From: Aristaeella lactis
GTDB lineage: Bacteria; Bacillota; Clostridia; Christensenellales; Aristaeellaceae
Assembly: GCF_018118585.1 (NCBI RefSeq)
Contig: NZ_CP069421.1
Location: 3,224,001-3,288,000 of the forward strand
Reading direction: 5' to 3'
Length of the DNA stretch: 64,000 nt
Shown: positions 54,841 to 61,420 of the stretch, in pieces
Numbering within the stretch: the first letter of the stretch is position 1
How the letters are laid out: every line of letters starts with the position of its first letter
Position numbers and translations under genes: made by a program
The notes under the pieces: model-generated
Told to the model about the DNA's origin: nothing
The model's input: only the letters and a program-made list of their open reading frames with translations
Databases searched by the model: none

Positions 54841-55680
54841 TTATTCGGCCAGTCCGCCGCCTTCCAGCACAAGGCTGTCTTCATAATCCAGGCCGTAGGT
54901 GTCAACCAGGGTCTCTTCATAATCCTTGTGGAAGAAGTTTTCGGCGGCCAGGGCCTTAATCTCATCATTGATCCAGTTTAGCAGGCTTTCATTGCCCTTG
55001 CTGACGGCGGGAGCAATGGTGTCCTGGCTGCCCAGGGAAGGAATGCCGACGGTGTAGCCTTCATTCTGCAGGGCAAAGGCGATCACCTCGGTGTTGTCAT
55101 TGGCCCAGGCAACGGCATTTCCGTTTTCCAGGGCGTTCTTGGCATTGGCGTAGGTGTCATACTTCTGCAGGGTGATCTCAGGATTATTCTTGATCAGGTA
55201 ATCTTCGGCGGTGGTGCCGGAGATGACGATCACCTGGTCATCGGCAGTGATCTCGGACAGGTCTTTGATGATACGGCTGTCCGGGGAGACAACGCCCAGG
55301 GCCACGTTCATGTAGGGCAGGGCAAAGTCCACTTTCTCAGCGCGCTCAGGGGTGACGGTGAAGTTGGCCAGGACGATGTCCACTTTACCGGTCTCCAGGT
55401 ATTCAACGCGGTTGGCAGCTTCGGTGGAAACGTAGTTGACGGTCACACCGAGATCCTCACCGATGCGGCGGGCAAAGTAAACGTCATAGCCCTGGTATTC
55501 ACCGTTCTCATCCACATAGCCAAAGGGATTCTTATCGGAGAAAACGCCGATGTTGATGATTCCGGAAGCCTTAATCTCATCCAGGGTGCGGTAAACCACA
55601 TCCGCGGAAGCGGTAATGACAAGGGAAAGAGCCAGTACGAGGGCGATCACGAGGGCGATGATATTACGAATGGTTTTCAT
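54841..55680 (-). CDS. cysteine/polar amino acid ABC transporter substrate-binding protein (CjaA-like)
   Basis: 279 residues: signal peptide (IALVIALVLALSLVITASA, no lipobox cysteine), then a type-3 solute-binding domain. Phrases INIGVFSDKNPFGYVDENGE, STEAANRVEYLETGKVDIVL, ANFTVTPERAEKVDFALPYM, DTIAPAVSKG and FFHKDYEETL follow, as I remember it, the Campylobacter cysteine-binding protein CjaA almost phrase by phrase. It therefore probably binds cysteine. Last transport gene of the operon. Confidence 0.88.
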   Translation of the reverse strand: MKTIRNIIALVIALVLALSLVITASADVVYRTLDEIKASGIINIGVFSDKNPFGYVDENGEYQGYDVYFARRIGEDLGVTVNYVSTEAANRVEYLETGKVDIVLANFTVTPERAEKVDFALPYMNVALGVVSPDSRIIKDLSEITADDQVIVISGTTAEDYLIKNNPEITLQKYDTYANAKNALENGNAVAWANDNTEVIAFALQNEGYTVGIPSLGSQDTIAPAVSKGNESLLNWINDEIKALAAENFFHKDYEETLVDTYGLDYEDSLVLEGGGLAE

Positions 55681-55700: not shown

Positions 55701-56462
55701 TTAAGCCTCTGCTTTATTTTTTCTGTTGAATTCAAAAGACTGCAGGAACTTCTTCGCCTGCTCCGTTTTGGGAGATGTGAAGAAGGTTTCCGGGTCGCTT
55801 TCCTCAAGAATGTTCCGGTCTTCCAGCAGGATGATCCGGTCAGCTACGGCCCGGGCAAAAGACATTTCATGGGTGACGATGAGCATCGTCTTTCCCTGGT
55901 CCGCCAGGGAAACGATGACATCCAGCACCTCCCGGACCATTTCCGGATCCAGGGCGGCTGTGACTTCGTCAAAAAGCAGGATTTCGGGATGCGTGCACAG
56001 GGCCCGCACAATGGCGACACGCTGCTTCTGTCCGCCGGAAAGCTGCCGGGGATAACTGTCAGCCTTTTCTTTCAGGCCGACCCGGTCCAGCAGTGCCAGC
56101 GCTTCCTCCCGGACTTCCGTCCGGGAACGTTTCTGCGCCTTCACCGGCGCGAGGAGGATGTTCTCCAGCACGGTCAGGTGAGGGAACAGTTCGTAATTCT
56201 GGAATACCATTCCGACTTTGCGGCGCATCTCCGGCAGGTTTTTGCTTCCCTGACGAATCAGCTCACCCCGGAGCCGGATTTCTCCGCCCTGGATATCCTC
56301 CAGGGCGTTAATACATCGCAGGAGTGTGCTTTTGCCGCATCCGCTGGAGCCGACGATGACGACAACTTCACCTTCACGGACCGCCAGAGAGAGATCCTCC
56401 AGGATCGTCTGATCATCAAACCGCTTCGTCAGATGCGAGATGCTCAGGACTGTTTCCGCCAC
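55701..56462 (-). CDS. amino acid ABC transporter ATP-binding protein
   Basis: 253 residues: Walker A VGSSGCGKSTLLRC, Q-loop VFQNYELFPHLTV, signature LSGGQKQRVAIVRAL, Walker B LLFDEVTAALDP, switch VTHEMSFAR. It belongs to the polar amino acid group (GlnQ/TcyN-like). The GTG at 56462 has GGAGG 7 bases upstream and lies 4 bases after the permease stop. Confidence 0.93.
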   Translation of the reverse strand: MAETVLSISHLTKRFDDQTILEDLSLAVREGEVVVIVGSSGCGKSTLLRCINALEDIQGGEIRLRGELIRQGSKNLPEMRRKVGMVFQNYELFPHLTVLENILLAPVKAQKRSRTEVREEALALLDRVGLKEKADSYPRQLSGGQKQRVAIVRALCTHPEILLFDEVTAALDPEMVREVLDVIVSLADQGKTMLIVTHEMSFARAVADRIILLEDRNILEESDPETFFTSPKTEQAKKFLQSFEFNRKNKAEA

Positions 56463-56466
56463 GCGC

Positions 56467-57141
56467 TTACCTCCAGTGCTTTTCAAGTTTCTTTGCTGCC
56501 AGGCTCAGAGGCCGGCAGGCCAGGTAATACATTACGAAGATGGTCAGGTAGACACCGAACGCCGCGTTCGGGCTTGCCTTCCGGTTGGCCTCAATGATCT
56601 GCTGGGCAACCTTCAGGATCTCCACCACACCGATGAGGGTCACCAGGCTGGTGGTCTTGATCATCCGGGTAATCAGGTTAATGGATAATGGAATCAGCCG
56701 CCGTACGGCCTGGGGCAGGATGATCCAGCGGTAAACCTGGGCCGGTTTCAGCCCCAGCGCTTCCGCACTTTCCCGTTGAATGACTGGTATGCTGCTGACC
56801 GCGCCGCGGACCAGGTCACCCATTTCCGCCGTTCCCCAGAGGGCAAAGACGATGATGGCAGCCGCTTCTCCGGAAAGATTCCAGTTGAAGGCCCGGGTTG
56901 TTCCGAAATACATGAGGAACAGCAGGACCATCTGGGGCATGATATGGATAATGCCCAGCCAGACGCGCAGGATAACGGAAGAAACGGAATGTTTCCGGCT
57001 TGCGGCGATTCCCAGCAGGATGCCTGCGACCATGCTGATAGCAGCGGCGATCAGGCTGATGCGGAGAGCCACCCAGAGACCGCCCAGCAGCCGGACGAAG
57101 TTTTTTCCCTTGAAAAGGACCTCAAGTCCCAAATCCGGCAT
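56467..57141 (-). CDS. amino acid ABC transporter permease (second)
   Basis: 224 residues, about five helices; the HisM-type motif reads ESAEALGLKPAQVYRWIILPQAVRR (in parts), i.e. the EAA loop. It overlaps the other permease gene by 20 bases. It would form a heterodimer with the first permease. Confidence 0.92.
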   Translation of the reverse strand: MPDLGLEVLFKGKNFVRLLGGLWVALRISLIAAAISMVAGILLGIAASRKHSVSSVILRVWLGIIHIMPQMVLLFLMYFGTTRAFNWNLSGEAAAIIVFALWGTAEMGDLVRGAVSSIPVIQRESAEALGLKPAQVYRWIILPQAVRRLIPLSINLITRMIKTTSLVTLIGVVEILKVAQQIIEANRKASPNAAFGVYLTIFVMYYLACRPLSLAAKKLEKHWR

Positions 57142-57781
57142 GCCGCAGCCTCCTTTCCAGGAAGATCCCCAGCAGCGAGAGCGGCAGGAGGATCAGCAGG
57201 TAGGCTCCGACCAGCAGAAACAGGCTTTCCGTTGTCCGGTAATAAAGCCCGATCTGGTCCTTGGCCGTGAACATAAGGTCCATCAGACTTACAGCGGAGA
57301 ATACGCTGGTTTCCTTCATCAGGAAGATCACATTGGCCATGAAGGCGGGGACGCTGATGGCTGCTGCCTGGGGAAGGATCACATGGAGAAAGGCCTGCTT
57401 CCGGGTGAGTCCGAGGCTCAGGGCGCTCTCTTCCTGAATCTTCTCCACAGCTTCTATGCCGCTGCGGAAGGCTTCGGTCATGTATCCGCCGCCGAGAAAG
57501 GCGAGACCGGCAATACCACAGGCTTCCGGGTTGGTTTTGATCCCGATCTTCGGCAGACCGTAGTAGATGAAGAATAACTGCACAAGCAGGGGTGTGTTCC
57601 GGCTCAGTTCCACATAGGCGGCTGTGATCCTGCGAAGCACCGGAATCCGCCAGTGGAGTGCCGCGGCACACAGCAGACCCACAAGGGTGGCGAGCAGGAT
57701 GCCCGCGGTACCTGTCCGCAGGGTGAGCCAGGCGGCTTTCCCGTAAAGCGGCAGAACCTTTTCAATGTACGCCCAATCCAC
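57122..57781 (-). CDS. amino acid ABC transporter permease (first)
   Basis: 219 residues, about five helices: YVELSRNTPLLVQLFFIYYG and the EAA loop EESALSLGLTRKQAFLHVILPQA (in parts). It starts at GTG 57781, preceded by a purine-rich GGAAAGGAAG. First structural gene after the attenuator leader. Confidence 0.92.
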   Translation of the reverse strand: MDWAYIEKVLPLYGKAAWLTLRTGTAGILLATLVGLLCAAALHWRIPVLRRITAAYVELSRNTPLLVQLFFIYYGLPKIGIKTNPEACGIAGLAFLGGGYMTEAFRSGIEAVEKIQEESALSLGLTRKQAFLHVILPQAAAISVPAFMANVIFLMKETSVFSAVSLMDLMFTAKDQIGLYYRTTESLFLLVGAYLLILLPLSLLGIFLERRLRHAGFGT

Positions 57782-57820
57782 TGCGCTGCTTCTTCCTTTC
57801 CTGCTGATGCGGCCGCCTTC

Positions 57821-57858
57821 AAAGAAAAGCCCGGCAGCCGTTTTGAAGCTCCCGGGCA
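57821..57858 (-). terminator. attenuator terminator before the cysteine importer operon
   Basis: Stem 57847-57857 with 57829-57839 (minus strand GCCCGG plus AGC pairing with GCT and CCGGGC, one mismatch), then TTTTCTTT, 40 bases before the first permease gene. Its 5' arm TGCCCGGGAG is perfectly complementary to CTCCCGGGCA inside the leader ORF. Confidence 0.8.
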
Positions 57859-57887
57859 GATATGACTTTATCCGATCCTGCGGCGGA

Positions 57888-57995
57888 TCATTCAGAGCGC
57901 AGACACATACACGCTGACGCCCCAGCCATAATACATGCCCGGGAGATCAGCATTCGACAGGTGGTCCTCAGAATGATTTCCTTTTCGGTAAACAT
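57888..57995 (-). CDS. cysteine-containing leader peptide
   Basis: 35 codons with a very strong binding site (AAAGGAGG, 6 bases before the ATG). Cysteines stand at 13, 21, 29 and 31 of MFTEKEIILRTTCRM... (four UGU codons). It is followed by a terminator and then by genes for a CjaA-like importer. The segment of codons 17-20 (57936-57945) can pair with the terminator's 5' arm over 10 bases. This is the layout of ribosome-mediated attenuation; Arg and Met codons are equally frequent, so Cys as the sensed amino acid rests on the transporter type. Confidence 0.7.
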   Translation of the reverse strand: MFTEKEIILRTTCRMLISRACIMAGASACMCLRSE

Positions 57996-58045
57996 GCCTG
58001 CGCCTCCTTTCTGTTTCATACGCTTCTGTGTGAAAGCTTGAGGGC

Positions 58046-58074
58046 ATATTATCACTATCAGCCTACTATGTCAA
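58046..58074 (-). promoter_or_regulatory. promoter of the cysteine importer leader
   Basis: On the minus strand: TTGACA (58069-58074), 17 bases, TAATAT (58046-58051). The leader would be about 255 bases long. Confidence 0.85.
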
Positions 58075-58223
58075 TAGGTAAAAACAGGAAAACACAAAAA
58101 AGATCTCATGCTGGCATAATACCTGCTTTTTACAGGCAGAAAAGACAGGAGTTTCCCCCGGAAGCAATTCATGTATAATATACAGTAAGTGACGGAGTAT
58201 ATAAAGCAAGGAGATATTTGTAT

Positions 58224-59801: not shown

Positions 59802-59914
59802 CAGCGGTCAACCATGGCAAGAAGCTATAGAACGAATCTATAGCTCTTTATTAATCCCCGGTATTAGACAAAAACCCATTGATATAGTAGATTAATGCCA
59901 ACGCAAAAACGCGC

Positions 59915-59958
59915 AGCTTTAATTCAGAATTCAGAATGAAGAATTCAGAATTAAAGCT
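59915..59958. repeat. AT-rich inverted repeat upstream of metY
   Basis: Two 18-base arms (AGCTTTAATTCAGAATTC and GAATTCAGAATTAAAGCT) with one mismatch and an 8-base loop. A related AATTCATAATGAAGAATCC stretch lies at about 60051-60069, and a small 9-bp hairpin AGCTATAGA/TCTATAGCT near 59823-59845. The remainder of 59802-60115 shows no other clear feature except the short ORF listed separately. Confidence 0.65.
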
Positions 59959-59984
59959 ACTGATCCGGCAAGGAGGAAAGGACC

Positions 59985-60038
59985 ATGAAGTGCAGGCATA
60001 CGCTGAAGGCGGCACAGTTAAGCAGAAACCGAATGTGA
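59985..60038 (+). CDS. short ORF upstream of metY (possible leader peptide)
   Basis: 17 codons (MKCRHTLKAAQLSRNRM) behind a good AAGGAGGAAAGGACC site, 77 bases before metY. It contains one Cys and a terminal Met but no visible terminator follows, so regulation is only a possibility. Confidence 0.35.
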   Translation: MKCRHTLKAAQLSRNRM

Positions 60039-60115
60039 ATGTTTATTCATAATTCATAATGAAGAATCCGGATTCCGGGAAACATTCAAAAAAGTAATAA
60101 AGGAGAATAAATACA

Positions 60116-61420
60116 ATGTCTGATATTAAGAATTCCGCCAACTGGTCCTTTGAAACCAAACAGCTGCACATCGGCCAGGAGCAGGCCGATCCCGCTACCG
60201 ATTCCCGCGCGGTTCCGATCTACGCCACCGCCGCCTATGTTTTCCATAACGCCCAGCACGCCGCCGACCGTTTCGGACTGCGGGACGCCGGCAACATCTA
60301 CGGCCGGCTGACCAATCCGACCCAGAGTGTGTTTGAAGAACGCATTGCTGCCCTGGAGAACGGTTCCGCTGCTCTGGCAGTTGCTTCCGGCGCTGCGGCT
60401 ATCACCTATACGATCCAGGCACTGGCCAAGGCCGGGGAGCATATTGTGGCTTCCAAGACGATCTACGGCGGCACCTTTAACCTGCTGGAGCATACCTTGC
60501 CGCTGACTGCAGGCATTACCACCACATTTGTGGACCCGGATGAAGATGGCGCTTTTGAAGCGGCCATCCAGCCGAACACCAAGGCCCTGTATGTGGAAAC
60601 CCTGGGCAACCCCAACAGCAATATCGCTGACATTGAAAAGCTGGCGAAGATTGCCCATGCTCATGGCATTCCGCTGGTGGTGGACTCCACCTTCGCGACA
60701 CCTTACCTGGTAAGGCCTCTTGACTGGGGTGCCGATATTGTGGTGCACAGCGCGACAAAGTTCATCGGCGGCCATGGCACGGCCATTGGCGGCGTGATCG
60801 TTGAAGGCGGAAAATTCAACTGGAAGGAAAGCGGCAAGTATCCGTGGATCAGCGACGCGAATCCCAGCTATCACGGTGTCAGCTTCTATGATGTTGTCGG
60901 CCCCGCGGCCTTTGTGACTTACATCCGCGCGATTCTGCTGCGGGATACCGGTTCCACTCTGTCTCCCTTCCATGCATTCCTGTTCCTGCAGGGCCTGGAA
61001 ACCCTGTCCCTGCGCGTGGAACGCCATGTGGAGAATACCCTGAAGATCGTGGATTACCTCAGCAAGCATCCGCAGGTGGAAGCGGTTCATCATCCGTCCC
61101 TGGAAAGCGAACCCAGCCACGCACTGTACAAGAAGTACTTCCCAAACGGCGGCGGCAGCATTTTCACCTTTGAAGTGAAGGGCGACAGTGAAACCGCCAA
61201 GAAGTTCATTGACAACCTGGCGATCTTCTCCCTGCTGGCCAACGTGGCTGACGTGAAGAGCCTGGTTATCCATCCCTTCACCACCACCCATAGCCAGCTG
61301 ACCGAAGAGGAACTGCTGGACCAGGGCATCAAGCCCAACACGATCCGTCTGTCCATCGGCACGGAGAATGTGAAGGATCTGATCGCAGCGCTGGACGCCG
61401 CGTTCGAAGCAGTCAAATAA
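60116..61420 (+). CDS. metY: O-acetylhomoserine sulfhydrylase
   Basis: 434 residues, the usual length of the long MetY type (O-acetylhomoserine aminocarboxypropyltransferase), which makes homocysteine from O-acetylhomoserine and sulfide. PLP Lys in HSATKFIGGHGTAIGG, FETKQLHIGQEQADPATDSR at the start, YGRLTNPTQSVFEERIAALE, GLETLSLRVERH and SIGTENVKDLIAAL. AAAGGAG precedes the ATG. It fits a sulfur-amino-acid region together with the cysteine importer. Confidence 0.95.
   Translation: MSDIKNSANWSFETKQLHIGQEQADPATDSRAVPIYATAAYVFHNAQHAADRFGLRDAGNIYGRLTNPTQSVFEERIAALENGSAALAVASGAAAITYTIQALAKAGEHIVASKTIYGGTFNLLEHTLPLTAGITTTFVDPDEDGAFEAAIQPNTKALYVETLGNPNSNIADIEKLAKIAHAHGIPLVVDSTFATPYLVRPLDWGADIVVHSATKFIGGHGTAIGGVIVEGGKFNWKESGKYPWISDANPSYHGVSFYDVVGPAAFVTYIRAILLRDTGSTLSPFHAFLFLQGLETLSLRVERHVENTLKIVDYLSKHPQVEAVHHPSLESEPSHALYKKYFPNGGGSIFTFEVKGDSETAKKFIDNLAIFSLLANVADVKSLVIHPFTTTHSQLTEEELLDQGIKPNTIRLSIGTENVKDLIAALDAAFEAVK

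Follow-up and report, generated by a model that had tools for sequence, protein, structure and literature searches.

The window, by which we mean the whole stretch of 64,000 nucleotides of Aristaeella lactis DNA that was analysed, contains an amino acid importer operon preceded by a short, cysteine-rich open reading frame and an intrinsic terminator. The question raised by this arrangement is whether the reading frame encodes a leader peptide whose translation decides between termination and readthrough into the importer genes. The initial annotation had proposed such a leader, with cysteine codons and mutually exclusive RNA pairing, and its proposal is supported by the comparative data described here, compensatory changes in the first antiterminator helix included. 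We put at roughly 0.85 the probability that the element is a cysteine-responsive, ribosome-mediated transcription attenuator that serves as a portable, regulon-wide cassette before sulfur amino acid genes. It is probably a shared switch by which gut and rumen Clostridia turn such genes on when cysteine is short.

The importer operon and the parts of its leader

The operon, like all other features of this section, lies on the minus strand. Its first gene encodes an amino acid ABC permease (57122-57781) and is followed by genes for a second ABC permease (56467-57141) and a GlnQ/TcyN-like ABC ATPase (55701-56486), all three assigned by Pfam and sequence family, and for a substrate-binding protein of family 3 (54841-55680). 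The nearest solved relatives of the binding protein are 2yjp (best match, E 1.3e-67), presumably a cysteine receptor of Neisseria, and 1xt8 (E 1.3e-63), which we take to be the cysteine receptor CjaA; the CjaA-like character noted initially agrees with these matches. Judged by these resemblances, the operon behind the leader is a probable cysteine importer.

The leader element as a whole extends from 58078 to 57820. At its upstream end is a sigma-70 type promoter (58046-58074), TTGACA-17-TAATAT with TG ahead of the -10 box, which scored 10/12 in a consensus scan, and over its -35 box lies the inverted repeat CCTATTGACATAGTAGG (58062-58078), a candidate operator for an Rrf2-family (CymR/IscR-like) protein by the site counts given below. 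The Shine-Dalgarno sequence AAAGGAGG (58003-58010) ends 7 nt 5′ of the ATG of the leader ORF MFTEKEIILRTTCRMLISRACIMAGASACMCLRSE (57888-57995), which has 35 codons plus a stop, with UGU at codons 13, 21, 29 and 31, and which is read from the sequence and from family-wide conservation of the frame. The presence of the Shine-Dalgarno sequence and the 51 nt between the end of the -10 box and the ATG exclude a leaderless start. Among Shine-Dalgarno-led ATG ORFs of 20-55 codons in the 64-kb window, a description that the leader ORF matches, 1/10 contain at least four cysteines. Counts of frame and cysteine positions, together with a folding scan, make Cys13 (UGU, 57957-57959; position 0 of the family numbering used below) the proposed control codon. 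It forms one end of the conserved core TGTCGAATGCTGATCTCCCGGGC (57937-57959), defined by a degenerate-pattern search of family genomes.

Two exclusive structures can be drawn downstream. The 5′ arm of antiterminator helix P1, CTCCCGGGCA (57936-57945), is the exact reverse complement of TGCCCGGGAG (57849-57858), which is both the 3′ arm of P1 and the 5′ arm of the terminator; when the 187 nt that precede the arm were shuffled base by base, 39 of 200,000 shuffles contained an exact complement of it. RNAalifold and covariation counts add helix P2, with the 5′ strand ATGGCT (57924-57929) and the 3′ strand AGTCAT (57867-57862), and helix P3, with the 5′ strand GGGCGT (57917-57922) and the 3′ strand GCGCTC (57900-57895). 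The intrinsic terminator, GCCCGGGAGCTTCAAAACGGCTGCCGGGC followed by TTTTCTTTG (57820-57857), has arms GCCCGGGAGC/GGCTGCCGGGC and the tail TTTTCTTT that are readable in both sequence and fold; it is absent from the output of a consensus terminator scan. A possible sequestering hairpin, TCCCGG/CTGGGG (57920-57944), appears in the leader's own minimum-energy fold and would bury the P1 arm. The total folding energy of the leader is unremarkable (z -1.71; 11 of 200 shuffles fold equally well). The strong promoter, the 35-codon ORF with its good ribosome binding site and four UGU codons, and the terminator followed by importer genes are thus all present as first described. The 10-base exact complement of the terminator arm is also confirmed, on the minus strand, and proves to be conserved, but the antiterminator is not these 10 base pairs alone and comprises P1, P2 and P3.

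A leader family before sulfur amino acid genes

The leader of the window is a member of a large conserved family that stands ahead of many other genes. In a DNA search 30 of 45 genus genomes matched, often by short matches to block 116-159 of the query and at several loci per genome, and when aligned these matches are the leaders of different genes with the common core TGTCGAATG-N6-TCCCGGGC. A degenerate core pattern matched 27 of 308 family genomes, at 32 places in all, and its reversed control matched none. The core together with the terminator arm occurs in at least 119 stretches of public genomes, 118 of which have an in-frame leader peptide. Among the first 80 of these stretches an in-frame leader ORF with RMxxSRA is present in 79, and 75 of those have a ribosome binding site by our script rule; the other 39, which lie outside the covariance model, have RMxxSR in frame in 39/39 and a binding site in 38/39. 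By the record titles among the matches listed, 116 of 119 belong to Clostridia or other Bacillota, the rest being Phycisphaerales, Sutterella and one record titled bacterium. The Phycisphaerales match (L171) was rejected as a chance match whose frame contains no such leader. The locus titled uncultured Sutterella sp. (L210) encodes the leader peptide MAQRNFFSMCRMQHSRARMRSGGIACCCRQ, has neither Shine-Dalgarno sequence nor operator, and may be a misbinned contig, a transfer or a chance match. A covariance model built from 106 leaders matched 54 of 308 family genomes (81 matches), 13 of 391 class genomes and 5 of 398 phylum genomes, three of the last outside the class; the own genome is included in each of these counts.

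The counts that follow come from two samples. For the 38-leader set, taken by a regular expression that required most of the core, duplicate or truncated core-bearing loci were dropped. For the 107-leader set, ten duplicates or near-duplicates and L171 were removed from the first 80 loci of the public-genome pattern; one leader (L139) was too short for the 106-leader alignment. A further 39 loci (L175-L213) were kept outside the 107, and some of them repeat genomes already represented. Because the public-genome pattern required GAATG, TCCCGGGC and CCCGGGAG, and the regular expression most of the core, these letters are in part invariant among the 107 leaders by design of the search; searches by BLAST and by covariance model were less restrictive than the letter patterns. 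All counts are of sequences and not of independent events, and the sample behind the model and the 106-leader alignment is not tree-aware.

By sequence, the genes behind the leaders appear to have functions connected with the cognate amino acid. A downstream gene was called for 103 leaders, 53 of which precede members of one cluster of PLP-type enzymes of cysteine and methionine metabolism, mostly MSxYxFETLQLHVGQ proteins resembling the O-acetylhomoserine (OAH) sulfhydrylase of the window. The other targets include 26 binding proteins (family 3, NlpA and fusions of both), 15 importer permeases, three MetN-type ATPases with an NIL domain, three M20 peptidases, two GST-like proteins and one cysteine-synthase-like fragment. 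These types were assigned by clustering, with Pfam run on seven representatives and the permease and PLP types recognised by resemblance to the window's proteins. Binding proteins like that of the window stand directly behind the leader at distant loci such as L131 and L155, as judged by eye.

Some further observations concern individual target genes. Long proteins that are apparent fusions of a family 3 and an NlpA/MetQ-type domain follow the leader in L095 (by Pfam), L152 and L170 (both by eye). A GST-like protein (PF13410 in L108) follows a variant leader with MCMYMMRM in L108 and L157, and L201 has the same leader. In the window itself the OAH sulfhydrylase gene lies on the plus strand at 60116-61420, and the stretch upstream of it (59876-60115, plus strand) contains a degenerate inverted repeat, CCCATTGATATAGTAGA, and a short Shine-Dalgarno-led ORF with one cysteine, MKCRHTLKAAQLSRNRM; the covariance model has no match at 59876-60115.

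Importer orthologues lacking the core were also examined. The permease is present in 53 family genomes, and of 30 loci fetched, 12 have the core directly upstream and 18 do not. The initial annotation had named as evidence against its proposal orthologous leaders in which the transporter is kept and the ORF, its cysteine codons or the complementarity are lost, and here the outcome is mixed and mostly favourable: 13 of the 18 core-less loci carry a different Shine-Dalgarno-led ORF with clustered cysteines (for example MAVRRTYVEYAYDCCRMAGFAMPVRR and MAGKHFCGAYALMCCRRACFAMSARR) and a terminator of other sequence, and 5 of the 18 have none directly upstream. The importer of L048 has the operator and no leader, that of L044 sits behind a sulfhydrylase gene which itself bears the core leader, and on visual inspection those of L045, L046 and L058 seem to follow another gene. 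Judged by the sequences, loci in which this RNA element has given way to another thus seem mostly to have kept cysteine codons and a terminator. The loci L047, L049-L057 and L059-L061 make up a second class of cysteine leader, often with CCR or ACC followed by FAM, and mostly with a GCGGCC-type terminator. In several core-less leaders a GGCGGC/CGCCGCC pairing lies near the cysteine codons; when an arm of the P1 type was sought in the core-less cysteine leaders, this other fold was found instead.

Reading frame, pairing and the proposed switch

The leader ORF looks coding in its pattern of conservation. The nearest Shine-Dalgarno-led ATG is in frame with the core in 100 of the 101 leaders that have one (6 of the 107 have none) and in 34/34 of the further set, five of whose 39 members have none. 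A cysteine codon immediately ahead of CGA-ATG, at -1 or 0, is present in 105/107 and 37/39 leaders, respectively, and is often tandem; the exceptions noted are L108, L157 and L201, with cysteine only at -4 (MCMYMMRM), and L207, with cysteine at -2 (GCMRRM). Runs of CC, CCC and CCCC occur, CCC and CCCC among others in L263 and L265, which belong to a different class of the phylum, and cysteine makes up 11.8% of the residues outside RMxxSRA in the 107 leaders. Frame, cysteine codons and complementarity are kept together in these leaders. Two codons of the core vary (LI, QE, QS, FF, LN) while the frame is kept, and TCC, CGG and usually GCA are fixed because these codons form the pairing arm. The stop codon precedes the terminator arm in 107/107. 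In 28/107 a late CGATGTTG block, mostly read as Arg-Cys-stop, lies at the end of the ORF, a recurrence for which the pairing gives no explanation. A fourth hairpin on this block, in which 21 of 28 leaders pair at least five of seven bases against 12.2 ± 2.6 with shuffled 3′ parts (maximum 20 in 100 repeats), was weakly supported and left out of the model.

The conservation of CRMxxSRA could in principle mean that the ORF encodes a small, functional, cysteine-rich peptide and that the terminator sets a fixed ratio of transcripts. We regard this as extremely improbable, since it is the sequence of the pairing arm that imposes SRA, which is missing from leaders with an altered arm (L229, L230, L232), and the N-terminal and C-terminal parts vary in sequence, with total lengths of 29-55. 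In L219 the peptide ends after CRMR, at a TAA two codons beyond the methionine at +2 and ahead of the pairing arm, as in textbook attenuators. A ribosome terminating there would cover the arm, which counts in favour of the attenuator reading.

The antiterminator consists of three helices with compensatory changes and is mutually exclusive with the terminator. RNAalifold, given 38 leaders and no prompting, returned P1 (CUCCCGGGCA with UGCCCGGGAG), P2 (around AUGGC with GCCAU/GUCAU) and P3 (GGGGCG with CGCCUC), with double changes in 14 of 26 pairs. In a separate count over the 38 leaders, 92.9% of cells are paired and 13 of 25 pairs are changed on both sides; the covariation score is 0.302 against 0.176 ± 0.009 for shuffled and 0.05-0.11 for slid controls, and the 36 pair types (31.4 in shuffles) were reached by 8 of 500 shuffles. 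With 106 leaders, 89.8% of cells are paired, the covariation score is 0.181 (0.127 ± 0.005 shuffled, 0.05-0.09 slid), and there are 12 doubly changed pairs against 8.7, with 4 of 500 shuffles reaching 12; the pair types number 35, a value that three of the slid controls (range 22-40 or 26-40) exceed (36-40). P1 is almost invariant, yet compensatory changes occur in it. In L013 and L219 GGGC has become GGAC together with GCCC to GUCC, a change from G-C to A-U; in L226 CCCGGG has become CCCAGG opposite GCCUGGG, where the central G-C is replaced by A-U; and L223 and L224 pair GGGUG with CGCCC. The divergent leaders L229-L232 keep CCRM and the final Arg-Cys, and have other letters in P1, of whose 10 positions 6 to 9 still pair in the model alignment. 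They precede a gene of the cystathionine lyase type, which is followed in L229 and L231 by a cysK-like frame.

The nested multi-helix fold and the near-invariant nucleotides, among them the third base of CGA, would also be expected of a metabolite-binding riboswitch, in which a ligand would bind directly to UGUCGAAUG and P1-P3 and the ORF would be present only incidentally. Of the 107 arginine codons that follow the control codon, 106 are CGA, a near-invariance that the pairing does not explain. We nevertheless consider a riboswitch very unlikely. The Shine-Dalgarno-led frame is kept across variable N-terminal parts (100/101; 34/34) and across the two varying core codons, cysteine is enriched, and L229-L232 retain CCRM and the final Arg-Cys while the letters of P1 change. 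A pairing partner for UGUCGAAUG was sought by eye in the alignments and none was found. At gathering score, Rfam places no known RNA family in the window, in 8 leader loci or in 20 further loci, and its SAM and other riboswitch models have no match in the window, its leader or these 28 loci. At E <= 5 a plant-virus pseudoknot is the sole, weak match of the window leader (E 0.4), which we take to be chance, and the family was found in no Rfam 15 model.

The cysteine attenuator reading was pursued by folding 104 of the 107 leaders (the script found no T-run in the other 3) with a ribosome assumed to cover -17 to +12 around its A-site. When the ribosome is placed at position 0 and the RNA upstream is absent, 94 leaders have the antiterminator as their minimum-energy fold and 10 the terminator. 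The corresponding numbers are 41 and 60 for a ribosome at the stop codon, and 53 and 51 in the absence of a ribosome. When the ribosome is moved along the ORF and the upstream RNA is left free to pair, the antiterminator fraction lies between 0.51 and 0.62 for the codons tested in the range -8 to +1, with its peak (0.62) at 0, falls to 0.20 at +2 and to 0.00-0.01 at those tested from +3 to +12, and is 0.40-0.63 from +14 to +24. Position 0 is thus the edge of a permissive zone and not a unique optimum, since stalls from -8 to +1 all give 0.51-0.62. In this simple model a ribosome waiting at the conserved cysteine would leave the arm free, and one a few codons later would bury it. The four cysteine codons first described are all present in the window leader, but the scan singles out Cys13 as probably the one that exerts control. 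At Cys21 (+8) a stalled ribosome would sit over the arm and promote the terminator fold, and Cys29 and Cys31 (+16 and +18) are predicted to be permissive again (0.53 and 0.63). For the window leader the terminator is the minimum-energy fold in all three ribosome states. With the ribosome at Cys13 it reaches -51.3 kcal/mol, and forcing the antiterminator gives -48.1 kcal/mol, a difference of 3.2 kcal/mol. Since its best fold is the terminator even with a stalled ribosome, kinetic, co-transcriptional folding must be assumed.

The scan also bears on the possibility that the signal read by the leader is methionine, alone or jointly with cysteine. Methionine stands at -2 in 60/107 leaders and at +2 in 107/107, where ATG was required by the search patterns, and the targets include NlpA/MetQ and MetN-NIL proteins and homocysteine-forming enzymes. 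A ribosome at the methionine of +2, however, would cover part of the arm, and the antiterminator fraction there is 0.20, compared with 0.62 for a ribosome at codon 0. No methionine stands at -1 to -3 in the window leader, and L263 and L265 have CCC and CCCC without methionine directly before them. The core-less orthologues likewise keep tandem cysteines, preceded by methionine in L052, L053 and L059 (MCC) and not in those with ACC or DCC. We therefore give methionine sensing little credence.

In the mechanism that we favour, cysteine-responsive attenuation, transcription would start at the promoter, probably also under a CymR/IscR-like repressor of the Rrf2 family, and a ribosome would translate the leader ORF. 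With ample Cys-tRNA the ribosome would pass across CTCCCGGGCA and the RNA that makes up P2 and P3, the terminator would form and transcription would end. When Cys-tRNA is short the ribosome would pause on the UGU that occupies position 0 or a neighbouring codon, the first base of which is 14 nt upstream of the arm. The arm would then remain available to pair with TGCCCGGGAG, the P1-P2-P3 antiterminator would be built and the importer would be transcribed. A more speculative extension, to which we attach a rather low probability, is that an ancestral cassette of operator, promoter, CC-R-M leader and P1-P3 spread as a unit to unrelated sulfur genes throughout Clostridia, and that the near-invariant UGU-CGA-AUG context sensitises the stall through a slow CGA or the nascent chain, possibly reading cysteine and methionine jointly.

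Known attenuators and the repeat at the promoter

Leaders of the classical trp, his and ilv type are generally gene-specific. The Clostridia leader shares with these attenuators the Shine-Dalgarno-led ORF, the cognate codons, the terminator with an exclusive antiterminator and the cognate pathway downstream. In contrast to them, it is one near-invariant block, with a constant core peptide, that recurs in different families and upstream of many genes unrelated to one another, and its three-helix antiterminator reaches into the coding part. Mycobacterial Cys-rich upstream ORFs are reportedly named cysteine-responsive attenuators in the title of Canestrari 2020. Such ORFs precede sulfur genes, are leaderless and have a cysteine run near the stop codon (PMC4633059, PMC1262725), and for Mycobacterium no conserved terminator hairpin is reported (PMC1262725). 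Compared with the mycobacterial ORFs as described there, the Clostridia leader has a Shine-Dalgarno sequence, cysteine codons placed before the pairing arm, and a conserved terminator and antiterminator.

Two other systems are also related in kind. The uORFC-8-2 motif before cysS in Rhodobacterales combines a short ORF containing two tandem cysteine codons with a terminator and is predicted to act by ribosome-mediated attenuation; it belongs to Alphaproteobacteria, is found only before cysS, and differs in sequence and structure from the Clostridia leader, judged by the text description (PMC8632094). A histidine leader peptide before hisS and hisZ in bacilli is likewise a leader peptide attenuator of Firmicutes, presented in 2010 as new outside Proteobacteria and Actinobacteria; it differs in responding to histidine, in belonging to Bacilli and in serving one gene family (PMC2965389). 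Leader peptide attenuators were long considered rare in Bacillota (PMC2965389), where T-boxes do much of such work. In our own search of open-licence full texts, the core peptide string was found in no paper searched and no report was found of a cysteine leader family in Clostridia. Cysteine attenuation by a leader peptide is thus known as a kind, and what is new, as far as searched, is its probable use in gut and rumen Clostridia as one sequence-conserved, regulon-wide cassette. Such a leader marks the sulfur amino acid regulon in many uncultured species and helps to assign the specificity of transporters, namely cysteine importers and those with NlpA-type binding proteins.

Cysteine T-boxes and the CymR regulons of Bacillota respond to the same signal, and their target genes overlap those of the Clostridia leader. 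The initial annotation had named T-boxes and CymR as the usual controls of Bacillota. The T-box covariance model finds nothing at gathering score in the window, in the 8 leader loci or in the 20 further loci, and nothing at E <= 5 in the leader. Control of the CymR type probably acts in addition to attenuation, through the repeat over the -35 box, and is not replaced by it. The repeat CCTATTGACATAGTAGG is present within 4 mismatches in 89/107 leaders, 53 of them exact, against 0.15 of 107 in shuffles, and in 31/39 of the further leaders. With up to 2 mismatches allowed, the own genome has three such sites, namely the one at the importer leader, one upstream of a gene that resembles cysK, and one that separates a desulfurase-like gene from a gene of the Rrf2 type (the names of these genes were assigned by eye). 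Because the repeat over the -35 box is conserved and also adjoins the Rrf2-type gene, an added layer of repression is likely, and the leader accordingly offers a testable case of two-layer control, in which a repressor and an attenuator would act on the same genes. At the last of the three sites (L094), about 1.5 kb past the end of the window, the Rrf2-type gene is divergent from the desulfurase-like gene, with the inverted repeat between them, and the protein that it encodes is a candidate regulator of the importer promoter.
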